Shown piece after piece: positions 25,078 through 63,793 of a DNA stretch of 64,000 bases. The stretch lies in contig JANQKZ010000001.1 in assembly GCA_028280845.1 (NCBI GenBank), forward strand, positions 1 through 64,000. Reading direction: 5' to 3'. How positions within the stretch are numbered: position 1 is the stretch's first letter; every line of letters begins with the position of its first letter. The position numbers and the translations under genes were made by a program. The stretch comes from Opitutales bacterium. Its GTDB lineage: Bacteria > Verrucomicrobiota > Verrucomicrobiia > Opitutales > JABSRG01. Below the pieces are notes generated by a model. The model had not been told where the DNA came from. It did no database searches and saw only the letters and a list, made by a program, of their open reading frames with translations.

Positions 25078-25219
25078 ACGATTAATAGAGGGGAGGTTTG
25101 CAAGAGTGACTAGAGGAAAACCGGGAAGGCCCTTTAACGCAATAAAGATTACTGTCCACAGGAGGGGTGGTTCTGGAGGACAGGGGAGTGGGCTATGGTC
25201 TGGCATAAACAGGATGGAT

Positions 25220-38525: not shown

Positions 38526-38634
38526 GGAAGATGCGGGCTTGTGGGGTGCCAGGGATCGAGTTGAAGCTTAAAGTTCCTTTTATCGGGATCAAGATTTGAG
38601 AAACCGGAATACTCGAATGCGAGGAACCAGCCGC

Positions 38635-40239: not shown

Positions 40240-40241
40240 AT
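40227..40241. promoter_or_regulatory. Candidate LacI-family operator half-site at own start codon
   Basis: TTCTAAGCGTTATAT overlaps the ATG of the LacI gene (40240). The same 15 bases occur at 44376-44390 as part of a perfect inverted repeat upstream of the TonB receptor. Position and sharing suggest autoregulation. Confidence 0.6.
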
Positions 40242-41316: not shown

Positions 41317-41470
41317 TGACTAAGCCCAATCAATCAGGGTGGCCAACCGCGTAACATGCCCATTGATAGTACCTCTGGTATGGGGGTATGGCTTACTCCC
41401 ACATGGCTCCTGTTTCTACCTGGAAACGGGAGACAGCCCTAAAACTCTGTTTTGCAAGCCGTGCAAGAAA

Positions 41471-41498
41471 TTGGCCTCTCCCAAATGGGAGAGGCCAA
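41471..41498. terminator. Bidirectional intrinsic terminator hairpin
   Basis: TTGGCCTCTCCCA (41471-41483) and TGGGAGAGGCCAA (41486-41498) form a perfect 13-bp stem with a two-base loop, located between the convergent LacI gene and TonB receptor. On the minus strand it is followed by TTTC. A second small hairpin AAAACCA/TGGTTTT with a T run lies at 41502-41519. Confidence 0.85.
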
Positions 41499-41524
41499 AA
41501 GAAAACCAGTTGGTTTTTTCCAAA

Positions 41525-44254
41525 TTACAGTTGGTAGTTTAATCCGGCAAAAATGGTTGTACCTGCCGTGGTTACATTATAAAGGCGACGAGCGCTGTCT
41601 GAATATTGTTGTTCGGTCGTATCGGTGAGGTTGATTGCGTCCAAGGTAAGTTTGAGTCTTGGAGTTACCTGGTAAAAGGCGGAGAAGTCCACATAGGTTG
41701 TGGATTCATATCCCCGCATATCCTCATCTGTGCCAACCGGGGTGGCATTCAGAATCCAATCGCTGCGATAGTTTGCCGATATACGAGCACCCCACTTATT
41801 ATTTTCGTAATAAAAGGTAAGGTTTCCAAGCGTATCCGACATGCCTTCGAGTGAATTGACTCGTGATATCCCTTGTTCTTGTTCTGTGGGGGACGCATAG
41901 TCCAATTCGGAGTCCACTAAGGTGAGGTTTGCCACAACGCCGAAACCATCGACAGGGAGAAAGGTGAGGTCGGATTGGATACTGAGTTCCACTCCCGAAA
42001 GCGTGGCATCCTCATAGTTCACCGGGCGAGTATACTCACTGATAATCGTGTCGGGAGTCAGTCCGGGAAGTAAGTCGACAGGAAGACCGGTTTCGCTATA
42101 GGGCACGTCTACCGCCGTTTCGCTTCCAATGAACCCGGTTATATCCTTGTAGAAGAAACCTATGGCCGCGTAACCGACATTCCCAAAATACCACTCTAGT
42201 GCCAGATCGATATTTTTTGATTCGTAAGGATTTAAGGCGGGATTCCCTGTAGATACGGTATACTCTCCGTTATTTTCGTCAATATCGCCATCTACCCTTA
42301 AGGCACTAAGCGTCGGCCGGTTAATGTTTTCCGAGGCGGCAAACCGGAGATTAATATTGGGGTTTAATTCCAACACCATATTCAGGGCAGGAAGAATATC
42401 ATCGTAGCTTTCTTCTACCTCGACTCGTCCTACGTTGGACACTCCGGAGGACGTGATCGTAGTGTTGTAATGGCGGATCCCAATATCTCCACGGAATGGC
42501 AATACTCCGATCTTGTAATCCCAATCGTATTGAAGGTAGGCGGCGAAGGTTTCCTCCTCCACCCCATAGGTGTCTCTTGGATCCAACTCCTCTCGATCCA
42601 ACCCATAGTGGGCCATCACGCGATCCCAATCCGCGATCAACCAATCCTGGTCTTTGTGGTCTCTGAAAACGGTTGCATAGGGAGACACGTCATCGTCTAC
42701 CTCACCCGACTGAAATTCTGAGCGTAGCACATTGTCTCGTCGTTCAGTAAATCCTTCATTTTCGAACCTGCGGCTTGAAACTCCTAATTTAAGGTTGGAA
42801 GAGAGCGTTAAACTGTAGTTGAGATCCGCTTTAATCGTATCGAGTTTCGACGATTGATAGTCTTCTCGAAAATCGAACTCGTGAGCACGCCAATTTGAAG
42901 GGCTGGTCGTATCAAATCCGTAAGTATTATACCCATAATATTGTTCTCGTGAATAGTCCGTGATAATATCACCAAATGTTTCCGTATAGAATTTGTCGCT
43001 GATGGGTATATTGTAGTCAGAAGTTTCGGTCCCTACTAAGAATTTGAATAATAGACGGTCGGTGGGCCGCCAATCCACAGACAAGACCCCCTGGGTAAAC
43101 TCATTTTCGGCAGTTTGTCGCCGGGTTTCTGTAGCCAGGTTTGCTCCGCTGACATCCGAATACACCACTTCGTTATTTCCATTCAGTCGGATTTCATTGA
43201 TCACTGAATTCGGATAGGTGACGCCCGCTACGGTGGTTCCACCGCCCAATAGGGTGGAACTGGAACCTCGAGATGCCAGATGCAGTTCTTCTCGATCCGC
43301 TTTGTATGACCCGTACAGGAGGTCTAAGTTGATAGTAAGGGTCTCCGTCGGAACCCACTGAAACGAACCGGTCAGGCCGAGACGGTCCTGTTGGCTTTGC
43401 CAGTTGGATAAACGATTCCCTCGAGCCCAGCGGGATTCTCCGGCATTGATGATGTCTTGCTGGTTTTGGGGAAGATTGGAGATATCACTCCCACTCGCAT
43501 TTCTCAGTCTCCAACGGTAGGTGTTGTATCCTTGTTCCTCCGTGTCACGGCTGGAATAGGCAACAGAGAGCAAGGCCCCGAAATTTTTCCAGGTTTGCCC
43601 CACCTGTCCGGCTACCCGCGGCTGAAAGTCACTAGTTTGACTGTTCGTTCCAGCTTGAACGGATAAGGCGGCGGAAGGGTCATCTTTGTCATAATCGAAA
43701 TTCTTGGCGGTAAATAATCCGATCGTGCCGGCCAATCCGCCTTCATTCTGCTCAGCCGAAAAGGATTTATATACATCGACCCTGCTGAACAACTCGGATG
43801 CAAAAAGATTAAAATCAAATGCCCGGTCCCGGGTTGTCTGGCCTCGGCTGTCTTGGGGGGAGTCTACGTTTCCGAGAACTTCCATCCCGTTCAGTTGAAC
43901 CCGTGTGAAATCCGGGCCCAATCCCCGTAGCGAAACACGGCGACCTTCTCCCGCTTCACGGTTAATGGCCACTCCTGGTAAACGTTGCAGGGATTCCGCG
44001 AGGTTTAAGTCGGGAAATTTTGCGATATCCTCCGCGATAATTGAGTCCTGGACCGCGTTAGCTTCCCGTTTGATTTCACGCGCTTGAATCAGTGACCCTC
44101 GGATTCCTGCAATGACGAATTCATCCAGGGTCTCGATATCGTCATCACTATTCAGGTTGTTGGTTTGTCCGCTTATAGAGCTAAAGGAAAGGCACGCCAG
44201 GGCGAGGATTCCTGATATTTTACTGGTCCAGCTGCTTTTTATTTTGCGTTCCAT
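41525..44254 (-). CDS. TonB-dependent receptor (Xanthomonas/Caulobacter type)
   Basis: 909 aa. Signal peptide at the N-terminus (WTSKISGILALACLSFSSISG), then a TonB-box-like ETLDEFVIAG, then the plug domain with EDIAKFPDLNLAESLQRLPGVAINREAGEGRRVSLRGLGPDFTRVQLNGM, the signature of the TIGR01782 group. The 22-strand barrel follows and the chain ends in an aromatic-rich strand (ATTIFAGLNYQL). No SusC-type carboxypeptidase-like domain. It should bring an oligosaccharide across the outer membrane using TonB energy. No SusD is adjacent. The region upstream has a LacI-type operator, so control by the LacI protein at 40240 is likely, with a uronide-containing oligosaccharide as likely ligand (inference). 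Confidence 0.93.
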   Translation of the reverse strand: MERKIKSSWTSKISGILALACLSFSSISGQTNNLNSDDDIETLDEFVIAGIRGSLIQAREIKREANAVQDSIIAEDIAKFPDLNLAESLQRLPGVAINREAGEGRRVSLRGLGPDFTRVQLNGMEVLGNVDSPQDSRGQTTRDRAFDFNLFASELFSRVDVYKSFSAEQNEGGLAGTIGLFTAKNFDYDKDDPSAALSVQAGTNSQTSDFQPRVAGQVGQTWKNFGALLSVAYSSRDTEEQGYNTYRWRLRNASGSDISNLPQNQQDIINAGESRWARGNRLSNWQSQQDRLGLTGSFQWVPTETLTINLDLLYGSYKADREELHLASRGSSSTLLGGGTTVAGVTYPNSVINEIRLNGNNEVVYSDVSGANLATETRRQTAENEFTQGVLSVDWRPTDRLLFKFLVGTETSDYNIPISDKFYTETFGDIITDYSREQYYGYNTYGFDTTSPSNWRAHEFDFREDYQSSKLDTIKADLNYSLTLSSNLKLGVSSRRFENEGFTERRDNVLRSEFQSGEVDDDVSPYATVFRDHKDQDWLIADWDRVMAHYGLDREELDPRDTYGVEEETFAAYLQYDWDYKIGVLPFRGDIGIRHYNTTITSSGVSNVGRVEVEESYDDILPALNMVLELNPNINLRFAASENINRPTLSALRVDGDIDENNGEYTVSTGNPALNPYESKNIDLALEWYFGNVGYAAIGFFYKDITGFIGSETAVDVPYSETGLPVDLLPGLTPDTIISEYTRPVNYEDATLSGVELSIQSDLTFLPVDGFGVVANLTLVDSELDYASPTEQEQGISRVNSLEGMSDTLGNLTFYYENNKWGARISANYRSDWILNATPVGTDEDMRGYESTTYVDFSAFYQVTPRLKLTLDAINLTDTTEQQYSDSARRLYNVTTAGTTIFAGLNYQL

Positions 44255-44617
44255 TAGTAGTCGGGAGATTTGATTTTCTGGTTTTTTCTTGCCTAGGAAA
44301 GATAGATTGGGGGGCTCCCCTAAACTAGATAGAGAAAAGCTAAGCTTTTCCTTAAGGTTGATCCAAACAAACGCTTTCTAAGCGTTATATCCCCCGACAG
44401 GAGTTCCATCCCGTTAAACACTCACCCCTGTTTTGCGATGAATGTTTTCATCCAAACTTTTAATACGAAAATTAAATTTAAAAATTGACTTTAATATGAT
44501 CATCTAAAAATGATCTTTGTGGATACAAAACACTCATTCGGGGCTGAGACTAGAACGTAACCTGCCACGAATTGCTCTACACTCTAAACCTATTCAAACT
44601 CACACTTCCCTCTTGTA
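44255..44617. promoter_or_regulatory. Divergent promoter region between two TonB receptor genes
   Basis: 363 bases holding three palindromes: GAAAAGCTAAGCTTTTC (44334-44350), AACGCTTTCTAAGCGTT (44370-44386) and GATCATCTAAAAATGATC (44498-44515). The first two lie nearer the minus-strand receptor, the third about 100 bases before the plus-strand receptor. A possible -35 box TTGACT occurs at 44485. No coding sequence. Confidence 0.65.
44370..44386. promoter_or_regulatory. Candidate LacI-family operator
   Basis: AACGCTT-TCT-AAGCGTT is a perfect 7-3-7 inverted repeat of the size and TAAGCG-like centre found for LacI-family operators, 116-132 bases upstream of the receptor start (44254). Its right part with the flanking bases is repeated at the LacI gene start. 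Confidence 0.7.
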
Positions 44618-47206
44618 ATGCATCAGCATAATCAGACTCTCTCAGCAGGGCGGCGCTTCCTGGCGGCCCTACTCATCCTGTTTTTCGGAATGGGATCATA
44701 CGTAGACGGACAAACGGACCTGACCACGGATGAGGACATCGAAGAGCTCGGTGAATTTATTATCGTTGGTACGGCTTACGCGACGAGTCAGGCCGTAAAT
44801 AGCAAACGGGAGACCGCTATCATTGCGGATTCCGTAGTTTCTGACGACATTGGAAAACTCCCCGACCACAACGTGGCCGATGTGCTGAGGCGTGTTCCCG
44901 GCGTCACGACGATCATGGATGAAGGGGAAGGGCGGTATGTGACAATCCGTGGGTTAAGTCCTGAGTTTACCAATATCACTGTGGATGGGGTTAAACTGTC
45001 CTCGGTGGCGGCGCCCTGGGATGCCTTTGCTAAAGCCACGGTTCTGGAAGCCATTCCGGCCGCATCTCTGGAGCAGATCGTAGTCAAGAAGACACTGACA
45101 CCGGACATGAGTGCGGATGCGATCGGCGGTACGGTTAACTTAAAATCCCGCGGGGCTTTTGACCGGAAGGCCAACTACCTCTCTGCGTCGGGTGGGCTGG
45201 GCTACTATTCGATGGATGACATGCCGAAGTCGGACAACGGCCCTTCCTATAAAGCGGATGTTTATTACAGCACCATCCTGGGCAATGACGAGCAGTGGGG
45301 GGTTTCCGGAGAGTTGAATTATAATCTCCGGGATTCCGATGAATTGAAGACCATCCGGACCGGCTACCGGGAACTTCCTTCCGGCGAGATGGTAACGGGA
45401 GACTACTGGAATTATATCTATGGCAATAAGCGGGAACGAAAGGGGGGTAGCGTCAAACTTGAGTTTATGCCGGCTCAGAAATCCCACACCTATTTGTCAG
45501 TCCGCCATTATACCCAACGGGATGATGAGGATAAATATGGGCATTATTTACGCGCCTCCGGAAAACATGATGAACCGACCAGCACCATCAATGGGGCGTC
45601 GGGGCGGTCCCGTTATTTCAATCACGATATCAAGCGCAAGACCACGACTTACCTCTTGGGCTCAGACTACTATTTTGACGATAATACCAAGCTCACGGCT
45701 TCCTACAGTATTTCGGATAGTGAGTGGGAACAGCCGAACCAGTTTATCCAGTATGACTGGCAGGGCCCCGGGCTCAATGGGACCTACGACTCCTCTGGAT
45801 TTGTAGATCTTTACCATTTGGATGGCCCAAGCCAGCAGGAATTCCGTGATCCGGAAAATTACCAATTCACCCTTTTTCAACTCTACGATCATAACAGTAG
45901 CAAAGATCTGAATGAATTCAGGCTGGATTGGGATAGCACCCAAACGACCGGAAGGGATTGGGGCTATAAATTGGGGGTCACCGGTCGGGATGAGGCATAT
46001 GAGTACGATTATGAGCGTGGAGAATACCGCCGTAGTGGTTTTTCCATGACGGACTACGTGGAAGAACCGACGGATTGGGTTGCACCAGGAATGAGTGACC
46101 CGTTTATTTTCCTGAACAAGGATGCCTTCCTCAATGATTTTGATCCTTCTGAAGATGGGTGGACCTTTAATGACCGGGATCCCTATACGCGGGACTACCA
46201 GGCTAACGAAAAGGTGCTGGCCGGGTATGCCATGGCTACCTATTTTACTGAGAAAATGGATTTAATCGGCGGAGTTCGCTATGAACATACGGATTGGGAT
46301 TCCACCAGTTTTGAAAATGCAGATCCCGCACGCCCGGTAACAATCGAAGGAGATTACTCCCATCTCCTGCCGTCCTTCCTCGCCAATTATCGTTTCAATG
46401 ACAGTTGGGTGATCCGTGCAGGCTACAGCCAGTCAATCGGTCGCCCGGATTACAAGGACTTGGGGGTTCCCGCCCGTTTTGATGACGTGGACGGCGATGT
46501 TACCCTGCCGAACCCGGACCTGAAACCGAGAGAATCCAACAACTATGATCTCAGTTTGGAGTATTACTTTCCTCAGAACCTCGGGCTCCTCAGTTTGGCG
46601 GTGTTTTACAAGGATATTTCGAACGAGATCTACACCCAGCGGGAATTCTATGAGTACCGGGATCCGGGCACGGGTGAAATCATTAATCCCGATGCGACCA
46701 TTAATCAGCCCGTCAATGCGGGGAAGGGGAAGACCTCCGGGTTTGAGGCCAGTTATCAGATGGCAAAGCTACCCATGCTGCCTGGTGCCCTTTCGGATTT
46801 GGGATTCTCCGTCAACTACACGCATAACAACGGGGAGCTGGAGTTGATCGATTCAGGTGGGGACGTGGTTCGCACGACGGATAGCTACATTTATCAACCG
46901 GAGAAACTGATCAACCTGAACCTGTTTTTCAGTCGTGCCAAATATGAGCTGCGTCTCGCCTATAATCATACCGATCACTATTACGACTCCTTTCATCCCA
47001 CGGATACCTTTCGCGATGACCGGTGGAATGGCCGGGATCAGTGGGACTTTCATGCCCGTTACAACATCAATGACTCCTGGGTTGTGACGGCTGATTTCTC
47101 CAATTTCACGGATGAAGCCAGGGTGCGACAATATGGCGATGAGCACCTGCGGGAGTTCGTGGATTTTGGTCGTTCCATCTGGATTGGTACCCAATACCGC
47201 TATTAA
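44618..47206 (+). CDS. TonB-dependent receptor (Xanthomonas/Caulobacter type)
   Basis: 862 aa. Signal peptide (AGRRFLAALLILFFGMGSYVDG), TonB-box-like EELGEFIIVG, plug with IGKLPDHNVADVLRRVPGVTTIMDEGEGRYVTIRGLSPEFTNITVDG, and a barrel whose last strand ends GTQYRY. Same broad group as the receptors at 41525 and 54131, but distinct. It heads a row of four genes: glycerophosphodiesterase (55 bases later), ROK regulator and PhoD-type phosphatase. That context suggests a phosphodiester-linked or phospholipid-derived ligand, which is inference. An inverted repeat GATCAT-N6-ATGATC lies about 100 bases upstream. Confidence 0.93.
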   Translation: MHQHNQTLSAGRRFLAALLILFFGMGSYVDGQTDLTTDEDIEELGEFIIVGTAYATSQAVNSKRETAIIADSVVSDDIGKLPDHNVADVLRRVPGVTTIMDEGEGRYVTIRGLSPEFTNITVDGVKLSSVAAPWDAFAKATVLEAIPAASLEQIVVKKTLTPDMSADAIGGTVNLKSRGAFDRKANYLSASGGLGYYSMDDMPKSDNGPSYKADVYYSTILGNDEQWGVSGELNYNLRDSDELKTIRTGYRELPSGEMVTGDYWNYIYGNKRERKGGSVKLEFMPAQKSHTYLSVRHYTQRDDEDKYGHYLRASGKHDEPTSTINGASGRSRYFNHDIKRKTTTYLLGSDYYFDDNTKLTASYSISDSEWEQPNQFIQYDWQGPGLNGTYDSSGFVDLYHLDGPSQQEFRDPENYQFTLFQLYDHNSSKDLNEFRLDWDSTQTTGRDWGYKLGVTGRDEAYEYDYERGEYRRSGFSMTDYVEEPTDWVAPGMSDPFIFLNKDAFLNDFDPSEDGWTFNDRDPYTRDYQANEKVLAGYAMATYFTEKMDLIGGVRYEHTDWDSTSFENADPARPVTIEGDYSHLLPSFLANYRFNDSWVIRAGYSQSIGRPDYKDLGVPARFDDVDGDVTLPNPDLKPRESNNYDLSLEYYFPQNLGLLSLAVFYKDISNEIYTQREFYEYRDPGTGEIINPDATINQPVNAGKGKTSGFEASYQMAKLPMLPGALSDLGFSVNYTHNNGELELIDSGGDVVRTTDSYIYQPEKLINLNLFFSRAKYELRLAYNHTDHYYDSFHPTDTFRDDRWNGRDQWDFHARYNINDSWVVTADFSNFTDEARVRQYGDEHLREFVDFGRSIWIGTQYRY

Positions 47207-47261
47207 GCAAGTTCAAGCAAAGCCTGGGTCGGAGGGTGTAAGCTCTCCGGCCAATTTTCCG

Positions 47262-48248
47262 ATGAAAACTTTCCATTCCATTCTGTTCTCCGGGCTGGCC
47301 CTCTTCCTGGTTCTTCCGGTCTTTGGAGGAGCAACCAATCCGGTTTTGCCCTTCGGCAAGATGGCGCATTCCAGGGAGTTTGAGCAAAGCCTGCGTGCAA
47401 TCCAGGATCCCCTGGATCCGGCAGTCTTTGTCGTCGGTCATCGAGGGGATTGGAGGAATGCCCCGGAAAACTCGCTTCTCGCGATTGAGTATTGCATTCA
47501 GCGTGATGTTGAAATTGTCGAAATCGATGTCCGTCGGACGGCCGATGGTGTCTTTGTCCTCATGCACGATGAAACCGTGAACCGGACGACGACAGGGGAA
47601 GGCCGCGTGGAAGATATGACTGCTGCGGAAGTGGCTGCCTTGAGGCTTACCAATGGCCTGGGGAATCCCACCGAACTGGGCGTGCCCACATTACGAGGGG
47701 CGCTGTTGTCAGCAAAGGGCAGAGTGCTTTTGAACCTGGACAAGTGCGATGACTATCTCAGCGAAGTGGTTCCAATACTTCGCGAAACCGGAACGATTCA
47801 TCAGGTCATTTTAAAGTCCAGACGAAGCTATGAGGAAGCTCGCTTGTTCTATGGCGACCTTCTGACAACCATCCACTTCATGCCCATCATCATGGTGGAT
47901 GAACCGGATTCCATCAAAAGGGTGGATGCCTACCTGAACCATCTCATGCCTCTGGCATTTGAGCTCGTCTTTCAAGAGCCTGATTCTCCAAACCTGAAAA
48001 CGATTCAAAATCGGTTAGAGGGGAAATCCAGGATCTGGATTAACACCCTTTATCCTGAGTTATGCGGCCGCCATGATGATGAGAGGGCCATTTACGATCC
48101 GGAGATGATTTACAGTTGGATCCTCGCCCGAGGGGCCTCCATAATTCAGACTGATCGCCTGGATTTGTTAATTCACTTTTTAAACCAAAAGAACCCATCT
48201 CATGCCCTGGTGGGCACGCAAATGACCGAAGCCCCAACCCTGCCGTGA
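47262..48248 (+). CDS. Secreted glycerophosphodiester phosphodiesterase-family protein
   Basis: 328 aa from the ATG at 47262, which starts a signal peptide (MKTFHSILFSGLALFLVLPVF); upstream starts overlap the receptor gene. GDPD TIM-barrel motifs: VVGHRGDWRNAPENSLLAI (catalytic HR), EIVEIDVRRTADGVFVLMHDETVNRTTTG (E, D and HD residues), VPTLRGALLSAKGRVLLNLDK and the late TDRLDLLIHFL. Typical enzymes split glycerophosphodiesters into glycerol-3-phosphate and an alcohol; some members act on other phosphodiesters. Exported, likely periplasmic. Located 55 bases after the TonB receptor and overlapping the ROK gene by four bases. Confidence 0.92.
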   Translation: MKTFHSILFSGLALFLVLPVFGGATNPVLPFGKMAHSREFEQSLRAIQDPLDPAVFVVGHRGDWRNAPENSLLAIEYCIQRDVEIVEIDVRRTADGVFVLMHDETVNRTTTGEGRVEDMTAAEVAALRLTNGLGNPTELGVPTLRGALLSAKGRVLLNLDKCDDYLSEVVPILRETGTIHQVILKSRRSYEEARLFYGDLLTTIHFMPIIMVDEPDSIKRVDAYLNHLMPLAFELVFQEPDSPNLKTIQNRLEGKSRIWINTLYPELCGRHDDERAIYDPEMIYSWILARGASIIQTDRLDLLIHFLNQKNPSHALVGTQMTEAPTLP

Positions 48249-49390
48249 AGCGTAACCTGAACGAAGCCTTTCCTGAACGGGATACCCATTTTCCTAGCCT
48301 GACAAGTAAACATCGGGCCGTTTTCCGTATGGTGCACACGGTTCCGGAGGTGAGCCGGGCCATGATCGGGCAGGAGCTGCGAATGAACAATTCATCGGTC
48401 TCCTACCTGGTCAACCAAATGATTGAGTGGGGCCTTTTGGCCGACGGAGAGCGGGTTCCAGTACCCCGGGGCCAACCCATTATTCGTTTGGAGATCGATC
48501 GGACGACTTTTTTCCAGTTTGGGATATCCATTTACCCGGATCGCTTTTCCATTGCCAGGACCAATCTGGCGGGTGAGCAGATGAGTTTTTTTGAATTCAA
48601 AGGGGACTGGACCCAACCCCAGGCCACCTGCGTGGAAATCGCGGACAGACTGAGAAACCAGATGGAGATCGAGTCGCTTGATCCCGCCTATGCCATTGGG
48701 GTCGGGGTGGCGATGTCGGGGAACGTCGTCAACTACGGCGAATATTTAATTACCCCTGACCCCCTTCTGCACTGGAGTGGTTACAAAACGGCAGAGTCCC
48801 TATCCTCGTTGACCCGCTTACCCGTATTTATCGAAAATGATGCAAAAGCCGCCGCCCTCGGTGAACTCGTGACGGGAGAGGGGAAGGAAATCGCATCCTT
48901 TTATTATACCTCCATGGGCTTGGGCCTGGGAGGAGCCTACGTGGAAAACCAACGCATTATTCGTGGGGCTGGGGGAAATCTTGGAGAATTGGGCGCCCTG
49001 CTGACCTTCAGATCCGTACGACCCACTATTCCCAGTTTGTTACAATACCTCGGTTTATCCGGTTCCAATCTCACGGAAGGCTTAGATTTGGAACAGTTGA
49101 GAGTGGACCATCCCGTGGCCTTTCGTAAGTGGCTCCAGGAAGCGGCGCACAACTATAACGCCGGGCTCAACCAGGTAGCCAAATTTTTGCGTCCCCAAAC
49201 GATTATCATCAGTAGCCGCTTTCCCGAGTCCGTTTCCCGGCAAATCATAGACGGTATCTCCTTTGAACCGTTTCACCCTCCCAGGTATAACGATTTACCG
49301 CAACCGGAGGTCATCCTTTCTTCTCTTGAACCGGAAATGGCAGAAATCATCGGGGCGAGCCTTCTACCCGTGCACCACCTCATTTATTAA
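48245..49390 (+). CDS. ROK-family regulator
   Basis: 381 aa starting with GTG at 48245, in a GTGA overlap with the upstream stop codon. N-terminal winged helix (FRMVHTVPEVSRAMIGQELRMNNSSVSYLVNQM), then a ROK sugar-kinase-like domain with IENDAKAAALGELVTG and TSMGLGLGGAYVENQRIIRGAGGNLGELG. The zinc-binding CxCGxxGCxE motif of many ROK proteins is missing. Likely a sugar- or sugar-phosphate-responsive repressor controlling the surrounding operon. Its DNA target is not identified; the inverted repeat at 44498-44515 is one possibility. Confidence 0.88.
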   Translation: MKRNLNEAFPERDTHFPSLTSKHRAVFRMVHTVPEVSRAMIGQELRMNNSSVSYLVNQMIEWGLLADGERVPVPRGQPIIRLEIDRTTFFQFGISIYPDRFSIARTNLAGEQMSFFEFKGDWTQPQATCVEIADRLRNQMEIESLDPAYAIGVGVAMSGNVVNYGEYLITPDPLLHWSGYKTAESLSSLTRLPVFIENDAKAAALGELVTGEGKEIASFYYTSMGLGLGGAYVENQRIIRGAGGNLGELGALLTFRSVRPTIPSLLQYLGLSGSNLTEGLDLEQLRVDHPVAFRKWLQEAAHNYNAGLNQVAKFLRPQTIIISSRFPESVSRQIIDGISFEPFHPPRYNDLPQPEVILSSLEPEMAEIIGASLLPVHHLIY

Positions 49391-49402
49391 CGGTATTACA
49401 CT

Positions 49403-50830
49403 ATGAAGCGGCCTGGCTGGTTATCGGGTATCATCATCCTTCTTGGGAGCGTCACCTCTCTGCCCTCCACGATTAGCTGGGAAGGCTACCCCCGGCTCAT
49501 GCAAGGCCCCATGGTGGGTTGGGTGAGGTCGGAGTCAGCTGTCATTTGGGTGCGGTTGAGTGGCCCGTTTGAGGTATCCATAGAATACTCCACCGATTCC
49601 TTTTTCGAAAAGTCAAGGCTGTCGGAGAGGGTTCGGGTCACAAAAGAATTAGATTATACCGCCGTTATCGAGCTGGATCACCTGGACCCGGACACCACTG
49701 TCTACTACCGGGTTCTCGTTAATGGCAGACCGGAGGCTCACCGGCTGAGGGGATTTCCGCTTCTCAGCTTCAATACGACACCCTGTGGGGCCTCGAGCTT
49801 TAAAGTCGCCTTTGGGTCTTGTGTCCGGCCCCAGTGGAATCCGGTCCAACCCATATGGGATGGGCTGCGGCCTCATCGGCCGGATCTCTTTTTCTGGTTG
49901 GGAGATAACATATACGGGGATTCTCTCGACCCGGACATCCTTGCGGAGGAATACCGTAAACAGCGGGACATCGTCAATATGCAGCCCCTGAACTGGGGAA
50001 CCCCTCAGCTCGCGGTTTGGGATGATCATGACTACGGGCTCAATGATCATGATAAGCGAAATCCGATCAAGGAAGAGGCGCTGCAGGTGTTTAAGAACTA
50101 CTGGGCCAATCCATCCTATGGGGAACCGGGAAACCCGGGAGTGTATTTTAAATATGGATACGGTAAGGTGGATTTCTTTTTTATCGACGTCCGGTATCAC
50201 CGGGACCCCATAGATACGCCGGATGGTCCTGAAAAAACCATGCTGGGGACCGGTCAAAAACAGTGGTTGAAAGACAGCTTAGCCCGGAGCCAGGCCACGT
50301 TTAAGGTCTTGGTCAGCGGGAATGGCTTCACCGTGGAGAAGGGACCCCACTCAGAATCCTGGGCCTCTTTTCTCGATGAGCGTGATGAGATCTTCGACTT
50401 TATCATGGAGCAGGGGATTTCGGGTGTATTGCTGATATCGGGGGATACCCATGTCGGGGAGTTGAACTGCATCCCGCGGTCTTCCTCTGAAGGATACGAC
50501 CTGTATGAGCTGGTCAGTTCTCCCCTGGCACAGCGACCGTCCGAGAGTTGGCTGAATTACCATGTTATCGAACGGATCCGGCAGTTTTACTTTGGCGGAG
50601 ATAATTTTGGCCTGATGACGTTTAACACCCAGGCGAAAGATCCCTATGTCATCTTGACCCTGCACGACCAGAATGGGCGGGCCGTGTGGTCCCCGGTGAA
50701 GGTGTTTGCCTCGGAGTTGGTCCCGGGTTCGACATCGGATTGGAAAGATAAAATGGATACCAAATCCCGGATCCGCTGGGAGCGCTGGGAGAGCGAAGGA
50801 CGGTATTATGATAAATATTTGAAGGATTGA
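49403..50830 (+). CDS. PhoD-family alkaline phosphatase/phosphodiesterase
   Basis: 475 aa with a hydrophobic N-terminal signal (WLSGIIILLGSVTSLPSTIS). An N-terminal beta-sandwich (VGWVRSESAVIWVRLSG) precedes the metallophosphatase core: FKVAFGSCVRP, DLFFWLGDNIYGD, LAVWDDHDYGLNDHDK, KVDFFFIDVRYHRDP and LLISGDTHVGEL. These match PhoD, which binds Fe and Ca and hydrolyses phosphate mono- and diesters. It follows the ROK gene by 12 bases and is the last gene of the row, so it could remove phosphate from the products of the GDPD step. Exported. Full length for the family. Confidence 0.92.
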   Translation: MKRPGWLSGIIILLGSVTSLPSTISWEGYPRLMQGPMVGWVRSESAVIWVRLSGPFEVSIEYSTDSFFEKSRLSERVRVTKELDYTAVIELDHLDPDTTVYYRVLVNGRPEAHRLRGFPLLSFNTTPCGASSFKVAFGSCVRPQWNPVQPIWDGLRPHRPDLFFWLGDNIYGDSLDPDILAEEYRKQRDIVNMQPLNWGTPQLAVWDDHDYGLNDHDKRNPIKEEALQVFKNYWANPSYGEPGNPGVYFKYGYGKVDFFFIDVRYHRDPIDTPDGPEKTMLGTGQKQWLKDSLARSQATFKVLVSGNGFTVEKGPHSESWASFLDERDEIFDFIMEQGISGVLLISGDTHVGELNCIPRSSSEGYDLYELVSSPLAQRPSESWLNYHVIERIRQFYFGGDNFGLMTFNTQAKDPYVILTLHDQNGRAVWSPVKVFASELVPGSTSDWKDKMDTKSRIRWERWESEGRYYDKYLKD

Positions 50831-51167
50831 TCTGATTTGGGAGTCTGCGGGAGCGACCACGCGTCGCGAGTGTTTGGGCTCTTTTTCCCAGAGGCAGGAT
50901 AGCATCCCGCCCTCCCGAACCAATGTAGGAGAGGCTTTATGCCTCGACCTTCCTGATATGTGAATTCCATCGCGACGCAAGGTCGCTCCTACGAAGACGG
51001 CCCGTTCGGATAGAGGTTATCGCTATCGTTGTCGTATTCGTAATCGATTTCGATTGGGAGGGCCTTCGAGGTTGCAGGATCATCCCTTATTCCTGCCCTC
51101 CTTAGCGATAAATTTGCGCCTGCTTCGTTGGCTGAATGGTTCTGCGGAAGGCAGGAAATTTTACCCT
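50831..51167. repeat. Intergenic REP-like cluster and period-6 repeat
   Basis: Holds a REP-like copy in one orientation (50848-50869), a variant GTAGGAGAGGCTTTATGCCTCGA core (50925-50946) and a copy in the opposite orientation (50970-50992). After these, six degenerate NNTCGN units run from 51018 to 51053. The gap separates two convergent genes. Confidence 0.75.
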
Positions 51168-52664
51168 TTAGATCACCGACAAGCCCCACAGGCCACCGTA
51201 CCAGAGGACGGCGATTCCACTCATGATGACAGAAACCGGGTTGATCGACTTCCATGTGGGTTCCAGTGAATAGGGGTAGGGGTGGCGTTCCTGTTTAAAG
51301 CAGGTAACGGAGACGATGTAGAGGATGGCAAAGGTGAGGGAGAGGGCGTGGAGCCAGTTGAGGTTTACACCGAGGGCAGGCAGGAAAAAAACCATGGGAA
51401 AGTAGAGGAGGGCAGCGGCCAGGATGGCATAAAAGAGTCCCCTGGGGGAAACACTCTTGGGCATGACACAATTCACCACGATGAAGAGGATGGTGATGTT
51501 AAAGAAGGCCTCATTTCGTTTCATGTGGATGAAGAAGGCGTCATCCAGCTGGTACAGGTTAGGGACGATGCAAATGATGATGAGCGATATGATGGCCCCG
51601 GAGGTCGCATAAAGGGGGGTACCCTGCAGCTTGGTCTTTTTGATTATATAGCTCAGGACATCATTGATGAAAAGGGTACTGAGGGCGTGCATGTTGCTGT
51701 TAAACGAGGTGACAAAGAGCAAAAAACTGATGATGCCGATAATCCAGATTCCCCAGCGGGGAAAAAGGAACTCACTCATGACGAGCACAATGCTGTCCGG
51801 TCTCTCCACTCCGTCTTTGAACACGGTGTAGGCAATCATTCCCGGTATGATGACAATAAAGGGGATGATGAGTTTACCCAATGCCGCAAGGAGGACCCCC
51901 TTTTGAGCCTCAGGTAAAGATCTGGCGGCCAGCGCACGTTGCAGGATACCCTGGGCGGTGCACCAGACCTGGACGTTAATCAGCAGCAAGCCCGTCAACA
52001 GAGTAGTCCAGGGGATGGTGGAATCCGGATCGCCGAAGGGGTTGAGCCGCTCCCCGTTCGTTTCAGTAAACGTCCTGAAAAACACAGCCAGGTTACCATC
52101 CCCCACCTTAAGGGCGCATCCGATCGTGAGGGATAAACCGAATAGGCCGAAGATGATGGCGACCGCGGTATCGGATCGCGCAATAAAGCGCATTCCACCG
52201 AACAGGATGTAGGTATTTCCGATGAGGACGAGGAACACGGCCATGAAAAAGAAACGGCTTCCCGGTGGGAGATCTAGAAGAAACTGGATGCGGAAGACAT
52301 CGGCGAAAATAACCGAGCTGGAATAGACCAGGGTGGGAAGATAGATGAAACCGGTCGACAGACAGACCAGGATGGCCAAAGCGAGTCGGCCCTTTTTGCC
52401 ATAGCGCAAGCCGACAAATTCGGGAATAGTGGCCACCCCGCTGGAGTAGTAGTGGGGCAGAAACATCTTGGCGCACACGATCATGCCAAAGACGGCAATC
52501 ACTTCCCAGGCGATGAAGATGACCCCCCACTGGTAGGCGCTTCCGTTCAACCCGATAAACTGAACCGTCGAGATATTGGTCAACAGGATGGACCCGGCTA
52601 CGGTCCATCCGGACAGGGATCGATCGGCGAGGAAAAATTCCCGTTCCTTTTTGCTTTTAAACAT
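51168..52664 (-). CDS. Sodium:solute symporter lacking the usual first span
   Basis: 498 aa. The first residues MFKSKKEREFFLADRSLSGWTVAGSILL correspond to the loop after TM1 in other family members (DYFLAGRSL), so the normal first helix is absent; the in-frame sequence upstream is hydrophilic and does not supply it. The remainder has NISTVQFIGLNGSAYQWGV and about 12 spans as expected. Either this protein is a genuine short form, or the true N-terminus was lost by mutation. It is on the same strand as, and 109 bases downstream of, the ROK gene, so it probably transports a compound linked to that regulon. Confidence 0.82.
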   Translation of the reverse strand: MFKSKKEREFFLADRSLSGWTVAGSILLTNISTVQFIGLNGSAYQWGVIFIAWEVIAVFGMIVCAKMFLPHYYSSGVATIPEFVGLRYGKKGRLALAILVCLSTGFIYLPTLVYSSSVIFADVFRIQFLLDLPPGSRFFFMAVFLVLIGNTYILFGGMRFIARSDTAVAIIFGLFGLSLTIGCALKVGDGNLAVFFRTFTETNGERLNPFGDPDSTIPWTTLLTGLLLINVQVWCTAQGILQRALAARSLPEAQKGVLLAALGKLIIPFIVIIPGMIAYTVFKDGVERPDSIVLVMSEFLFPRWGIWIIGIISFLLFVTSFNSNMHALSTLFINDVLSYIIKKTKLQGTPLYATSGAIISLIIICIVPNLYQLDDAFFIHMKRNEAFFNITILFIVVNCVMPKSVSPRGLFYAILAAALLYFPMVFFLPALGVNLNWLHALSLTFAILYIVSVTCFKQERHPYPYSLEPTWKSINPVSVIMSGIAVLWYGGLWGLSVI

Positions 52665-52773
52665 GGGGTCACTTTCAGTATGGAGCCCATGCGCGTTGCG
52701 GGAAGTGGTAAAGGGGGGAAGAGCGGGATTTAACAGCTTTGAAACAAATGTGGAAGGATCCCTTTAATTCACC

Positions 52774-53943
52774 CTAAATATTAAAAAAATGCTCTACGAA
52801 AGGCACGAGGCCGGCGCCGATGGCCGTGGCGTCACCTTCGCATTCCCTGGGAACGAGTTTGGCGTGTTCGCGGACGACAGCACGACGCTTGATATCGAAA
52901 AATTCAATGTGGGGAATGAGGCGCAGGGCGAGGGCCTTGGGGATGCGTCCCCCCAGAACGATGGCATCATTGTCGAGAATGGCGGTCGTGGCGGAGGCCA
53001 TGAGCGAGAGGGAAGGGGAGACTTCCTCAATCCAGTCGTCGATCCCTTTCCAGGAATCGTCGTAATGGGTGACTAGATCGCTCACGCTGTTCAGGTCTTG
53101 CCCGTTTGCATTTAGGTGTTGCCTGAGGAGCTCCAGGTTGGGGAAGGGATATTTTTCTTTGTCGATGGGGAGGATGCCAACAAACTCCCCCGCGTTCCCG
53201 CGTGAGCCGGTTATGAGTTTTCCATCCATGACAAAGCCGCCACCCACGCCGGTGGCGATGAAGTAGTAGGCAAAGCTGTTGGCCCAGCGACCGACGCCGT
53301 TCATCAGCTCTCCGATGGTGGCGGCTTTGCCGTCGTTTTCCGCCCAGACGGGCAGGGAGAATGCTTTGGAAAAGAGCACTTCCAGGTCCGTCAAGGCAAA
53401 GGCTTCCAGCGAGGGCGGGGTATTGAAAATGGCGCTCGGCCCGACTCTGAAACCGGTAGTGGCTACCCCCAGTCCAAACACGCGCTCCCGTGGAATGCCA
53501 TGCTCGGTCAAGATCCGGTTCATGCCGGTTTGGACCCCATTCAGTATCTGATCCCTGTTGAGGCCAGCTACCCCGGGGAGTAAGTAACCCCGTTGTTGTC
53601 CGGTGAAGTCCACTATAGTGAGCGCGATTCCGTCGGCCATGAGGGATAGGCCGAAGGCGTAGGCGTAGTCCGGATTGAGGGAAAGCACCGCACTGGGCTG
53701 TCCCCGGGTTCCGCTTTGGAATCCGGCCCCTCGCAGGATCATTCCCTGCTCCTCCAGAGTGGCTGCCACTCGGGAAATGGATTGTTGGGATAAGGAGAGG
53801 TCCTGATTGAGTTCGGCCTGGGTGCGTCTGCCCTTGCGAAACAACACACCCAGAAAGTCGCGCTGGCTCTCTGTGACGGCAGTGCCGTCGTGGGTTTCCG
53901 AACGAACGGTTTGAGGTGGGACTAATTTTACTTCTCGACTCAT
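52774..53943 (-). CDS. ROK-family transcriptional regulator
   Basis: 389 aa. N-terminal helix-turn-helix (QRDFLGVLFRKGRRTQAELNQDLSLSQQSISRVAATLEEQGM), then the ROK domain with VWAENDGKAATIGELMNG and FIATGVGGGFVMDGKLITGSRGNAGEF. As in the ROK protein at 48245, the cysteine zinc motif is missing. Divergent from the TonB receptor at 54131; the shared 187-base intergenic region contains three copies of a 15-bp inverted repeat, the probable operators. So it likely controls the receptor gene and possibly itself and the symporter downstream. Confidence 0.9.
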   Translation of the reverse strand: MSREVKLVPPQTVRSETHDGTAVTESQRDFLGVLFRKGRRTQAELNQDLSLSQQSISRVAATLEEQGMILRGAGFQSGTRGQPSAVLSLNPDYAYAFGLSLMADGIALTIVDFTGQQRGYLLPGVAGLNRDQILNGVQTGMNRILTEHGIPRERVFGLGVATTGFRVGPSAIFNTPPSLEAFALTDLEVLFSKAFSLPVWAENDGKAATIGELMNGVGRWANSFAYYFIATGVGGGFVMDGKLITGSRGNAGEFVGILPIDKEKYPFPNLELLRQHLNANGQDLNSVSDLVTHYDDSWKGIDDWIEEVSPSLSLMASATTAILDNDAIVLGGRIPKALALRLIPHIEFFDIKRRAVVREHAKLVPRECEGDATAIGAGLVPFVEHFFNI

Positions 53944-53993
53944 TTACAAAAGCTATTGATTGCAAATACCTTAGCATATTTCAAGCAATTTAA

Positions 53994-54084
53994 TACTCAC
54001 CATGAGTGAAAAAATCATAAAAACTACTTGCCTTGAGTAATAAAAAATCCAAAGCTCCCCGCCATATATTACTCGCAATGAGTA
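53994..54084. promoter_or_regulatory. Three candidate ROK operators
   Basis: Three 15-base sequences related as inverted repeats: TACTCACCATGAGTG (53994-54008), TACTTGCCTTGAGTA (54025-54039) and TACTCGCAATGAGTA (54070-54084). The third is a perfect TACTC-N5-GAGTA palindrome. Spacing between starts is 31 and 45 bases. They lie between the divergent ROK regulator and TonB receptor genes. Confidence 0.8.
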
Positions 54085-54130
54085 GTATTTAAATTCACGA
54101 TCATCAACTCTTACTAAGGACTCTCACCAG

Positions 54131-56797
54131 ATGTGCAGGTTAAGACACAGAAAGCGGAAAACCGGAGTGGTCGCGGGGGCGTCACTCCTTGTAGCGCAAT
54201 GGGGCTTTGCGCAGGAAGCAAGCATCCAGGAACTGGATGAATTCACCGTATTCGGATCGCACCTACAAAATCAGCGGGCAATTGAAATTCGGCAGGACAA
54301 TCCTACGGTTCTGATCGATGCGGTGACCACGGATGAAATTGGTCGTTTGCCGGATTTCAATATCGGGGAGGCCGTGCAGCGGCTCCCTGGAATTGGGGTG
54401 CAGCAGGATCAGGCAGAAGTCCGTTTTGTCACGATACGCGCGCTCAATGCGGAGTACAACTATACCACTGTGGATGGAGTATCCATTGCGGTGCCGGACC
54501 GGAACGGGCGACGGGTGTTTATGGATGTGATGCCGGCGTCGATGGCCTACCGTGTTGAGGTGGCTAAAACCTTTGTCCCCGGCATGGAAGGGGGCGCCAT
54601 TGGGGGCATTATTGATATTCAGACGGCGGATGCCTTCGCCTTTGGCCGGGACACCTTTAAAGTGAATGCTGAGATTGGGAAATATACGAATGATGATGGG
54701 TATCGCTCAGTCAATCCGTCGGGAACGGCAGACCTGTTTTACTCGGGAACGTTTGGGGCGGATAACCAGTTTGGCGTTGTCTTGACAGGGAACTATTACA
54801 AGCGGGATAGTACGATACCTCAGACCGAGTATGGGTCATCGCGGGCCTTCTATGATGCGAACGGGGATCCTGTGGGGACTCCGGATGATCCTCCTTACCC
54901 GGGGACGGGGTGGGAGGTGCCGCGTGAGCGACGGGGATACTGGTACCACAATGATCGGACACGATTTGGCGGGAGCGCCAAGTTTCAGTATCGCCCGGCG
55001 GACATGGTAGAGTTCTGGGTCCGGGGGTTCTGGAACAAGGCCACGGATGATGAAGCCCGGCAAACGGATCTGTTGCGGCATTCGGGTGGGGGAGAGCTAT
55101 TGAACCAGACGGCAACCACCGGCACTTTAATTACGGCCAATAGTCTTCGGCAACAACACTACCTGGGCCAATTTGAATTTGAACGAAGTGTCTGGGCGGC
55201 CACCTTGGGAGGCGATTTTGACCTGGACGCGGGGAATCTGGCCCTGCGCGCAAATTATTCAGGATCTAAATTCAGTAACCCTGAAAACTGGGCCGAGTGG
55301 CGGATGCAGGGGGACAATGACGGAGATGGAGTCGATGATAACGCGTTCAGTTATGAGCGCATCGGAGACGATTACGCGTTCACCTTATTAGATCCTGAGG
55401 CTTATTATGACTTCACTCAGTATGAAGCTTACCGGAGGCAATTTGATGACCGGTCGCTGGACGAAGATCTGTTTGAGCTCAAAGCGGATTGGGATGGGCA
55501 GATGGGCAGTGGGGTCTGGTCTTATGGGGCAGGGCTATCCTGGCGAAGAGTGGATCGTACCTTTGATGAGGAGCGGGACCGCTATCGACCTACGGGAACG
55601 AACGACTATACCTTGGATGCCGCTGGAGTCTTGAATACTGAAGTAAACCTTCAGCCCCCCGGGTTTATCGGAAATCAATCCCTGGTAGTGATCGATCCCG
55701 ATCTGGCTACGTCGCAATGGGAGGCGCACTTTGGGGCAAACGCAGATCAATGGAGCTTGGATAGCATGGAACGGGATGATAACCGATTGGATTACACCTT
55801 GGAAGAATCGGTCAGTGCGGCTTACGCCTGGTTGGGCTATCAAGTGGATCGTACGAATTTAGTCTTCGGCCTCCGTTATGAGGATACGTCGGTTGATGGT
55901 CTGGGTCGCCGCAATGTCAGCGGGATTGGATGGACGGATACAGAGAATTCCGGGGGGTATTCGGATCTCCTTCCCTCCATCAGTTATAGTTACCGGGTCA
56001 ATCAGAACCATCTCTTGAGGGCGGCCGTATCCAAGAGTGTCGGTCGACCCGGTTACAACTTGATCGCACCGGTAGGAGAGAGTTTTAACCCGGATTCTCT
56101 GACCCTGTCCCGGTCAAACCCGGACCTGGAGCCGCGGCGGTCGACCAATGTCGATTTGGGTTGGGACTTTTACTTCGACAATGGGTTTGGCCTGGTTTCG
56201 GCAGGTTTGTTTTACAAGCAAGTTGAGGGGGAAATATTCCGAGCGGCCACCGAGATAACGATTGATGTGGATGGCGTTGCCACCGAGGTTACGGCCACTC
56301 AGCCGATCAATAACGGAGATGACACGAATATCTATGGCTTGGAGGTGCAGGCTATAAAAAACCTGGATGGTGTAGTCCCCGGTCTTGGTTTCAATGTAAA
56401 TGCGACTTTTCTGGAAACCGACTTCACCGTCCTGATGAACGATGGGTCCAAGGTGGAGCTGGAAACCATGATCGGTCAGCCGAAGCAATCGTATAATGTG
56501 TCCCTCTTTTATGATCGTGGACGGTGGTCGACCAAGTTGGCCTATCGTTATCAGAGCCTTTCTGCCAGCAGCCGGATACGCACGGATCAGGAATATCGGA
56601 ATCGTTATGATACCGAGCGGCAAAGCCTCGATTTCAAAGCGACCTATCGTATGAATGATCACTGGGCATTCAACTTCAATGCCTGGAACCTGACGGGGGA
56701 AGGCCGTGGCGAAGTCCTTGGCTTTGATCAGGAAATTCCCATTGTTTCAGCAGATTTCGGGTCAGCCTACTTTATCGGGTTTTCCTACAAGAACTAA
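54131..56797 (+). CDS. TonB-dependent receptor (Xanthomonas/Caulobacter type)
   Basis: 888 aa. N-terminal region RLRHRKRKTGVVAGASLLVA and QWGFAQEASIQ is a basic then hydrophobic signal, followed by a TonB-box-like QELDEFTVFG. The plug includes IGRLPDFNIGEAVQRLPGIGVQQDQAEVRFVTIRALNAEYNYTTVDG; the RAL in place of the usual RGL is a small deviation. The barrel ends with a terminal aromatic strand (FGSAYFIGFSYKN). Preceded by three ROK operator candidates and followed by a hairpin and a GDPD gene 51 bases later, paralleling the locus at 44618. Ligand unknown. Confidence 0.93.
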   Translation: MCRLRHRKRKTGVVAGASLLVAQWGFAQEASIQELDEFTVFGSHLQNQRAIEIRQDNPTVLIDAVTTDEIGRLPDFNIGEAVQRLPGIGVQQDQAEVRFVTIRALNAEYNYTTVDGVSIAVPDRNGRRVFMDVMPASMAYRVEVAKTFVPGMEGGAIGGIIDIQTADAFAFGRDTFKVNAEIGKYTNDDGYRSVNPSGTADLFYSGTFGADNQFGVVLTGNYYKRDSTIPQTEYGSSRAFYDANGDPVGTPDDPPYPGTGWEVPRERRGYWYHNDRTRFGGSAKFQYRPADMVEFWVRGFWNKATDDEARQTDLLRHSGGGELLNQTATTGTLITANSLRQQHYLGQFEFERSVWAATLGGDFDLDAGNLALRANYSGSKFSNPENWAEWRMQGDNDGDGVDDNAFSYERIGDDYAFTLLDPEAYYDFTQYEAYRRQFDDRSLDEDLFELKADWDGQMGSGVWSYGAGLSWRRVDRTFDEERDRYRPTGTNDYTLDAAGVLNTEVNLQPPGFIGNQSLVVIDPDLATSQWEAHFGANADQWSLDSMERDDNRLDYTLEESVSAAYAWLGYQVDRTNLVFGLRYEDTSVDGLGRRNVSGIGWTDTENSGGYSDLLPSISYSYRVNQNHLLRAAVSKSVGRPGYNLIAPVGESFNPDSLTLSRSNPDLEPRRSTNVDLGWDFYFDNGFGLVSAGLFYKQVEGEIFRAATEITIDVDGVATEVTATQPINNGDDTNIYGLEVQAIKNLDGVVPGLGFNVNATFLETDFTVLMNDGSKVELETMIGQPKQSYNVSLFYDRGRWSTKLAYRYQSLSASSRIRTDQEYRNRYDTERQSLDFKATYRMNDHWAFNFNAWNLTGEGRGEVLGFDQEIPIVSADFGSAYFIGFSYKN

Positions 56798-56817
56798 CAG
56801 ACATTTTTTCTTAGTAT

Positions 56818-56845
56818 CCCCCGGGGAACTCCCCGGGGGCCTTTT
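56818..56845 (+). terminator. Hairpin terminator or attenuator between TonB receptor and GDPD
   Basis: CCCCCGGGGA (56818-56827) and TCCCCGGGGG (56830-56839) form a perfect 10-bp GC-rich stem with a very short loop, followed by CCTTTT. It ends three bases before the next start codon, so it could lower GDPD expression relative to the receptor instead of separating transcripts completely. Confidence 0.8.
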
Positions 56846-56848
56846 CCT

Positions 56849-57775
56849 ATGAAATTGCATCAACAGACCTCACTCCTGTTCCGGGTGTTGACCCTACTGT
56901 CATGCATCATGCCCCTCGGGCACGGGGGGATGGCGGCAGGCGAATGCCAAACCCGGGTAGAGCATATCCGCAGCATCATCGAATCCGGGGACAGTCCTGG
57001 GATACTGGTGGCGGCCCATCGGGGGCATCACCAGCACTGGCCCGAAAATTCCATACCCTCTATTCAATCAGCGGTAGAGGTGGGGGCCCATATTGTTGAG
57101 CTCGATATTCGGGTGTCACAGGATGGAGTGCCGGTTCTCATGCATGATGAGACCCTGGACCGGACGACCAATGGAACGGGCCCGGTCGTCGAGCATACTT
57201 ACCAGGCCCTCCAACAGCTGCGGTTAACAGATAATTCGGGTGAGTTAACCGATTGTCACATTCCTACGTTCAGAGAGGCCCTGGAGGCAGCCCGGGGAAA
57301 GATCCTGGTCAACGGAGATCTTAAGGCTACCGATTTAGATCCCATCCTTAACGTAATACTCGACTTGGAGATGAGCCGCGAGGTTATGTTTTATCATTCC
57401 AATCCGGAAGTCCTGGACAGCATTCTCCAAAAAAACCCAGAGGTCATGGTTATGACGATTGCCCGGGGTACGGAGGAGGTGGACCGCTTGCTAACCCATC
57501 GAAACGAAAGGATGCTTCATTTACGTGAGTCCTATAATTCGCTTCAGATCGCCGCGCAGCTCGACCAGCATCAAACCCTGGGTTGGACGAATGCATTGGG
57601 TGAGCCCGATCGCAGGGTGGTTTTGTATGGTCCGGAAATTGGATTTGGGCCGGTAGTGCAAAATCAACCGGATATTATTCAGACCGATTATCCCGAAGCG
57701 CTGGTGCAATATCTTCGACTGCTCAGGTTGCCGGAAACCTCTGATCCATTAGCCACCTCAGCCCAACCCCAATAG
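56849..57775 (+). CDS. Secreted glycerophosphodiester phosphodiesterase-family protein
   Basis: 308 aa with signal peptide (SLLFRVLTLLSCIMPLGHGGMAAG). GDPD motifs: VAAHRGHHQHWPENSIPSIQSA, HIVELDIRVSQDGVPVLMHDETLDRTTNG and IPTFREALEAARGKILVNGDLK, and the late IIQTDYPEALVQYL. Related to the protein at 47262 but not a recent duplicate: the HRGDWRNAPE/HRGHHQHWPE difference and shared barrel layout show ordinary divergence. Exported. Directly behind the TonB receptor, separated by the hairpin. Substrate probably a glycerophosphodiester or similar compound. Confidence 0.92.
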   Translation: MKLHQQTSLLFRVLTLLSCIMPLGHGGMAAGECQTRVEHIRSIIESGDSPGILVAAHRGHHQHWPENSIPSIQSAVEVGAHIVELDIRVSQDGVPVLMHDETLDRTTNGTGPVVEHTYQALQQLRLTDNSGELTDCHIPTFREALEAARGKILVNGDLKATDLDPILNVILDLEMSREVMFYHSNPEVLDSILQKNPEVMVMTIARGTEEVDRLLTHRNERMLHLRESYNSLQIAAQLDQHQTLGWTNALGEPDRRVVLYGPEIGFGPVVQNQPDIIQTDYPEALVQYLRLLRLPETSDPLATSAQPQ

Positions 57776-59944: not shown

Positions 59945-60059
59945 TTCCACTTCCCCAAATGATGTAAAACAGCTGAAGGACATGCGCGGTCACATTGCTG
60001 TCTAACACAATACATGCAGAAGGCTCTCCTTGGACGATCTTTTACAACAACGGAATGAT

Positions 60060-63779: not shown

Positions 63780-63793
63780 GAAAGGCAGTAAAG

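Follow-up and report, generated by a model that had tools for sequence, protein, structure and literature searches.

Uptake of sugar phosphodiesters is known from two plant-pathogen systems, those for agrocinopine and for xanthosan. In the experimentally characterised XanR-XanT-XanP module of Xanthomonas, a ROK regulator, a TonB-dependent receptor (TBDT) and a phosphodiesterase act on xanthosan, a sugar phosphodiester built from galactose phosphate (PMC12807533). Here we describe a 64,000-nucleotide stretch of an Opitutales bacterium (GCA_028280845.1, contig JANQKZ010000001.1, positions 1 to 64,000; hereafter the window), which contains two blocks, and part of a third, of comparable layout. 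The gene content shows three TBDT-ROK pairs that share an ancestor, each accompanied by a putative phosphoesterase of its own: a GDPD-family phosphodiesterase (GDPD1) plus a PhoD in block 1, GDPD2 in block 2 and an EEP-GDSL fusion in block 3. It is somewhat probable that the blocks are paralogous modules by which small glyco- or glycerol-phosphodiesters are taken up across the outer membrane and cleaved. The features are as follows.

44498–44515, no strand: perfect inverted repeat GATCATctaaaaATGATC upstream of TBDT1, weak candidate operator of ROK1
44618–47206, plus strand: TBDT1, TonB-dependent receptor of TIGR01782 type (Pfam barrel and plug; TIGR01782 511.8 bits)
47262–48248, plus strand: GDPD1, secreted GDPD plus DUF4996 phosphodiesterase (PF03009 72.7 bits, PF16387 95.9 bits)
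48245–49390, plus strand: ROK1, winged-helix ROK regulator without the zinc motif (Pfam, motif check)
49403–50830, plus strand: PhoD-type phosphatase (PF09423 89.3 bits, PhoD_N; PDB 2yeq, alkaline phosphatase D, E 8e-12)
51168–52664, minus strand: SSF symporter of SGLT type (PF00474), downstream of ROK2 on the same strand
52774–53943, minus strand: ROK2, regulator divergent from TBDT2 (Pfam, motif check)
53994–54087, no strand: three copies of TACTYRCMWTGAGTR (at 53994, 54025 and 54070) in the ROK2-TBDT2 gap, candidate ROK2 operators
54131–56797, plus strand: TBDT2, TonB-dependent receptor (Pfam, TIGR/NCBIfam)
56818–56839, plus strand: strong GC hairpin and T tract inside the 51-nt TBDT2-GDPD2 gap
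56849–57775, plus strand: GDPD2, secreted, diverged GDPD (PF03009 96.8 bits, partial DUF4996)
62301–63821, minus strand: EEP-GDSL, a GDSL and Exo_endo_phos fusion directly behind TBDT3 (PF13472, PF03372)
63794–64000, minus strand (contig 63794–66382): TBDT3, 3′ end in the window
contig about 66591–67763, beyond the window: ROK3, divergent from TBDT3

All eight genes that an initial annotation had named in blocks 1 and 2 were recovered in place by sequence, Pfam and TIGR/NCBIfam matches. It had described the joints of block 1 as ATG/GTGA overlaps; GDPD1 and ROK1 do share a GTGA (48245–48248), and the other joints are gaps of 55 nt (TBDT1-GDPD1) and 12 nt (ROK1-PhoD). The GDPD1 start at 47262 is that of the signal peptide. 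Both of the "two parallel loci" of that annotation exist as described, but there are in fact three paralogous TBDT-ROK pairs, and the two GDPDs are not sisters. Block 3 crosses the window end, reaching from 62301 to about contig position 67763, with the start of EEP-GDSL overlapping the end of TBDT3.

The genome holds 3 GDPD-domain genes, 16 TBDT homologues and 6 ROK genes. In trees of its own proteins, TBDT1–3 form one clade among the 16 receptors (FastTree support 0.999) and ROK1–3 one clade among the six ROKs (0.949). Therefore the blocks are paralogous receptor-repressor pairs, with phosphoesterases that were probably recruited separately. Both DUF4996-like GDPDs of the genome lie directly behind a TBDT, and all three ROKs of the ROK1–3 clade adjoin one. 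The chance of both GDPDs falling behind TBDTs is (16/4000)^2, near 2e-5, taking roughly 4,000 genes as our estimate from 4.8 Mb.

Layouts outside the window were obtained by homology searches with window and locus seeds and a simple caller of open reading frames (ORFs), selected genes being checked by Pfam; the counts are our reading of the resulting locus tables. Of 398 Sphingomonadales genomes sampled evenly, 17 carry a GDPD-DUF4996. The adjacency of receptor and GDPD, on which the initial annotation had staked its case, is the rule in these relatives: a TBDT stands beside the GDPD in 16 of the 17, a ROK of the same clade is also present in 11, and in 10 of those 11 an MFS_2 symporter lies near the ROK. 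Loci L166, L167 and L169 read SSF-GDPD-TBDT-ROK-MFS_2. A PF00245 alkaline phosphatase stands beside the SSF in L166 and L169, and the L167 copy is a near-identical ORF, recognised by its sequence. Genes for KDPG aldolase, glucokinase and Edd of the Entner-Doudoroff pathway neighbour L166 (Pfam), with matching ORFs for glucokinase and Edd in L167, and in L168 a TBDT-GDPD pair is followed by galT-galK-galE. Two TBDT-GDPD-ROK blocks lie in tandem, as in the window, in L171 (G1055:C11:54000-73234). PhoD genes near receptor-GDPD pairs occur in the window, in L105 and in L170.

The pairing extends further. Among the 80 top-ranking named matches from a GTDB scan, which are not a random sample, a SusC/TBDT or SusD gene lies on the same strand within 4.5 kb in 39, and a GlpT-like transporter is nearby in 21. 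The typical Bacteroidota operon is ECF-FecR-SusC-SusD-GDPD-GlpT, and Opitutaceae EW11 has ECF-FecR-TBDT-GDPD-GlpT. The gene order is less general in the wider phylum, where the DUF4996 subfamily is rarer (29 of 388 genomes) and mostly without an adjacent receptor. Therefore the TBDT-GDPD linkage is lineage-dependent. In 373 Opitutales genomes, the sole other close match to a ROK1–3 profile is in G638 (E 3e-49; the next about 1e-28), and that ROK also adjoins a TBDT and a GDPD.

The regulators of these loci belong together. A cross-locus tree unites ROK1–3 with all 15 ROKs taken from TBDT-GDPD loci in a single clade (100/98) that excludes 8 other ROKs; within it ROK1 has a long branch, and ROK2 pairs as sister with the ROKs of L166, L167 and L169 (100/99). 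TBDT2 is likewise sister to the L166 and L167 receptors (100/100), TBDT3 groups with the receptor of L168 (96/92), and TBDT1 is next to them (92/93). The receptors of ROK-type loci do not make up one clade, and therefore receptors have been exchanged. ROK1–3 match an N-terminal winged helix (MarR_2/MarR/HTH) followed by the ROK domain, the winged-helix matches being weak and, for ROK1 and ROK2, below the Pfam cut-offs. The zinc motif CxCGxxGC is absent from the ROK proteins of the blocks, as the initial annotation had noticed. It is also absent from ROK3 and from all 15 linked ROKs compared; because the loss is common to them all, it says little on a special effector such as the sugar phosphate then suggested.

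Both phosphodiesterases exceed the PF03009 cut-off of 23.6 bits and belong to the GDPD family, and their HR, ExD and HD catalytic positions are intact. Against the PF16387 (DUF4996) cut-off of 33.7 bits, GDPD1 is above and GDPD2, with 24.5 bits, below. The best solved relative of GDPD1 is PDB 3i10 of Bacteroides thetaiotaomicron (residues 48–310, E 7e-65), and its H60, R61, E87, D89, H102 and D160 are invariant across 14 relatives. The residue taken as the third metal ligand is Asp (D160 in GDPD1, D157 in GDPD2), invariant in the subfamily. An AlphaFold2 model of GDPD2 (pLDDT 89.6) finds 3i10 as its best PDB match (E 8e-26, TM 0.73/0.80), which points to a GDPD fold. In a tree of 32 GDPDs, GDPD1 groups with Bacteroidota and Opitutaceae enzymes (99/99) and GDPD2 is a long branch outside. 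The two are thus not simple duplicates; lying in different parts of the tree, they probably joined their blocks independently, and the substrates of the blocks may differ. Blocks 1 and 2 probably handle different compounds. An AvrBs2 identity for the GDPDs (NCBIfam) was rejected, since the matches score 31 and 43 bits where the cut-off is 1000, and reflect the shared GDPD core only. For the Exo_endo_phos part of EEP-GDSL the closest PDB entries include 3g6s (E 4e-25), 4c1r, a mannosyl-6-phosphatase (E 4e-17), and 3mpr; a single-sequence structure model of the whole protein was unusable (pLDDT 47.5).

What else the ROK-TBDT clade partners was examined in reverse, by searching the ROK clade in Sphingomonadales and choosing 20 loci for the absence of a GDPD. 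A TBDT is nearby in 19 of them. An MGH1-like glycoside hydrolase is present in 10, identified by Pfam in L188 and by an ORF with the N-terminal signature, not individually scanned, in the other nine. Other partner enzymes found by Pfam are GH92 (L202), the phosphodiester glycosidase NAGPA (L194) and PI-PLC-C1 (L204); the last two are thus partners of the clade in other loci, the enzymes of the window being GDPD and EEP. In L188 there are in addition a MOFRL/DUF4147 protein and an SSF, and in L196 there is UxuA; these and similar ROK-TBDT loci with MGH1-like enzymes probably serve glucosyl- or mannosylglycerate use. A DUF6528 protein lies beside the TBDT in four loci of the clade (L185, L187, L193 and L195). 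With half of these loci carrying MGH1-like hydrolases, the ROK clade was rejected as a specific marker of phosphodiester loci. The varied partners thus make the ROK-TBDT pair a general scaffold for small-glycoside uptake, in which the substrate is probably determined by the partner enzyme, and enzymes for phosphodiesters are one option that recurs.

In the phosphodiester modules proposed here, the compound would pass whole through the TBDT into the periplasm, where the secreted GDPD would split it into a phosphate monoester and a sugar or alcohol; a phosphatase, PhoD or another, would then take off the phosphate. The neutral sugar set free in block 2, probably a hexose, would enter through the SGLT-type symporter, whose best PDB match is 2xq2, the Na+/glucose cotransporter vSGLT (E 2e-30), and would relieve ROK2 on the three candidate sites in the ROK2-TBDT2 gap. 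Block 1, with its GDPD1 of the GlpT-associated branch, may handle a glycerophosphodiester, with glycerol-3-phosphate going to glycerol and phosphate via PhoD. A neutral sugar or glycoside is the likelier effector of the ROKs than a sugar phosphate, because their partners are MFS_2 and SSF neutral-sugar symporters and hexose catabolism genes, and because half of the non-GDPD loci carry glucosyl- or mannosylglycerate-type hydrolases. The route of capture, cleavage, dephosphorylation and uptake had been put forward in the initial annotation; it gains from the cross-phylum adjacency of receptor and GDPD, the recurring phosphatases and the Xan counterpart, while the pathway itself is still an inference.

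The candidate operators of block 2 call for a particular reading. The TACTYRCMWTGAGTR pattern was derived from its three copies themselves, so that their mutual similarity is not independent evidence; its absence elsewhere is, there being no further exact match in the 4.8 Mb genome. It suggests that control by ROK2 through these sites would be strictly local. The TACTC-GAGTA repeat of block 2 is absent from the L166–L170 gaps, some Sphingomonadales gaps having a different AT-rich palindrome, and an operator conserved between block 2 and these relatives was rejected. In block 1, GATCATctaaaaATGATC is the sole match in the window, with 0.3 expected by chance when one mismatch is allowed, and is a weaker operator candidate than the block 2 repeats. 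The hairpin between TBDT2 and GDPD2 is a candidate partial terminator or mRNA stabiliser.

Several points weigh against uptake and cleavage of phosphodiesters by these blocks. The ROK-TBDT clade is not phosphodiester-specific, and because it also serves glycoside hydrolases the ligand is an inferred one. No inner-membrane transporter gene adjoins block 1. GDPD2 has its long branch and a degenerate DUF4996 part. The hexose assignment comes from gene neighbours in three Sphingomonadales loci, and the ligands and enzyme activities are all predicted from sequence. The block 2 SSF is not a specific orthologue of those in L166 and L169, with about 27% identity, and its inheritance with them as part of one locus is not supported.

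Three other explanations were weighed. The blocks could scavenge phosphate from ordinary glycerophosphodiesters, that is, deacylated phospholipid head groups, GDPD yielding glycerol-3-phosphate and PhoD freeing the phosphate as in the PUS clusters of Flavobacterium, which pair receptors with phosphodiesterases and phosphatases (PMC8115612). The relatives of GDPD1 in SusCD/TBDT-GDPD-GlpT operons and the PhoD genes of block 1, L105 and L170 agree with this, but the ROK control and the nearby sugar symporters and hexose catabolism genes do not, and a GlpT-like gene adjoins neither block (the genome's best matches reach 166 bits against a family cut-off of 408); we regard it as rather unlikely. 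Less likely still, the TBDT-ROK pairs would import neutral glycosides and the GDPDs would target a side group of a glycan, for example glycerophosphate or phosphoethanolamine, or else a bond that contains no phosphate. The frequent company of the ROK-TBDT clade with MGH1-like hydrolases, GH92 and other non-phosphoesterases would fit, as would the alpha-L-fucosidase after block 2 and the many glycan genes on the contig. However, four families of phosphodiester enzymes (GDPD, EEP, NAGPA and PI-PLC-C1) stand behind this clade, the GDPD catalytic residues are intact, and phosphatases recur. That the genes are grouped by accident, or seem to be grouped because TonB receptors are abundant, is scarcely credible: TBDT genes are numerous in such genomes, but there are just 16 homologues here, both DUF4996-like GDPDs are behind one, and the neighbourhood counts, with the adjacency recurring in Alphaproteobacteria, Bacteroidota and other Opitutales, refute it.

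Other genes surround the blocks. Between blocks 2 and 3 (58223–62179) lie the alpha-L-fucosidase, a 3-keto-disaccharide hydrolase and a GFO/IDH oxidoreductase; a 3-keto-disaccharide hydrolase is also found near the TBDT-GDPD pair of L165. A type II-like CRISPR-Cas locus adjoins ROK3 (contig about 68855–73135), with an HNH/RuvC protein of 1116 aa and then Cas1. Positions 36336–44254 hold a LacI regulator, TBDT0, GH28 and an SSF, which look like a separate pectin-type utilisation cluster, and 22891–25239 encodes a 782-aa TIR-domain protein (TIR_2, ThsB_TIR weaker), possibly a defence gene.

The Flavobacterium PUS clusters likewise combine outer-membrane TonB receptors with phosphatases and phosphodiesterases (PMC8115612). 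In PUS I and II, which phosphate starvation induces, a SusD-type partner accompanies the receptor, whereas the window blocks have ROK genes and no SusD homologue. The literature searched gave nothing specific beyond that paper on GDPDs with polysaccharide loci, and no paper mentioning DUF4996. The SusCD/TBDT-GDPD(DUF4996)-GlpT operons of Bacteroidota and Opitutaceae, of which no description was found in that literature, have the same GDPD subfamily directly behind the receptor, and GDPD1 is of their branch; they differ in ECF sigma/FecR control and a GlpT-like exchanger in place of the ROK and sugar symporter of the window. In agrocinopine catabolism (AccF phosphodiesterase, AccG phosphatase), the portion of the account drawn on here has a sugar phosphodiester imported and cut and a product relieving a local repressor, as proposed for the blocks; unlike them, it has an ABC importer and cytoplasmic cleavage, and no TonB receptor is named in that portion (PMC4526662).

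The closest characterised system is XanR-XanT-XanP. As in blocks 1, 2 and 3, the ROK is beside the TBDT and the phosphodiesterase behind the receptor, and to the galactose phosphodiester ligand corresponds the galT-galK-galE of the relative locus L168. XanP is a 2H-phosphoesterase, where the window blocks have GDPD and Exo_endo_phos instead, and the present loci further differ in being three paralogous modules and in having a symporter and a PhoD. "Xan-like" thus refers to how the blocks may work, and not to membership or common descent. As this pairing is found again in distantly related bacteria, it probably reflects a little-studied use of small sugar compounds joined by phosphate bridges. 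More tentatively, and with considerable doubt, the free-living counterpart of the Xan system might be a ROK-TBDT cassette that spans phyla and in which the enzyme cleaving the phosphodiester (GDPD, EEP, NAGPA, PI-PLC) can be exchanged. If so, opine-like sugar phosphodiesters would truly serve as a class of nutrients in soil or water, and a single Opitutales bacterium would keep three such modules for three different compounds. The ROK-TBDT-GDPD locus would offer a clear assay for GDPD-DUF4996 enzymes, whose structural relative 3i10 was solved in 2009, and, by recurring in both Verrucomicrobiota and Alphaproteobacteria, would suggest a pool of such nutrients wider than that of the plant-pathogen systems.

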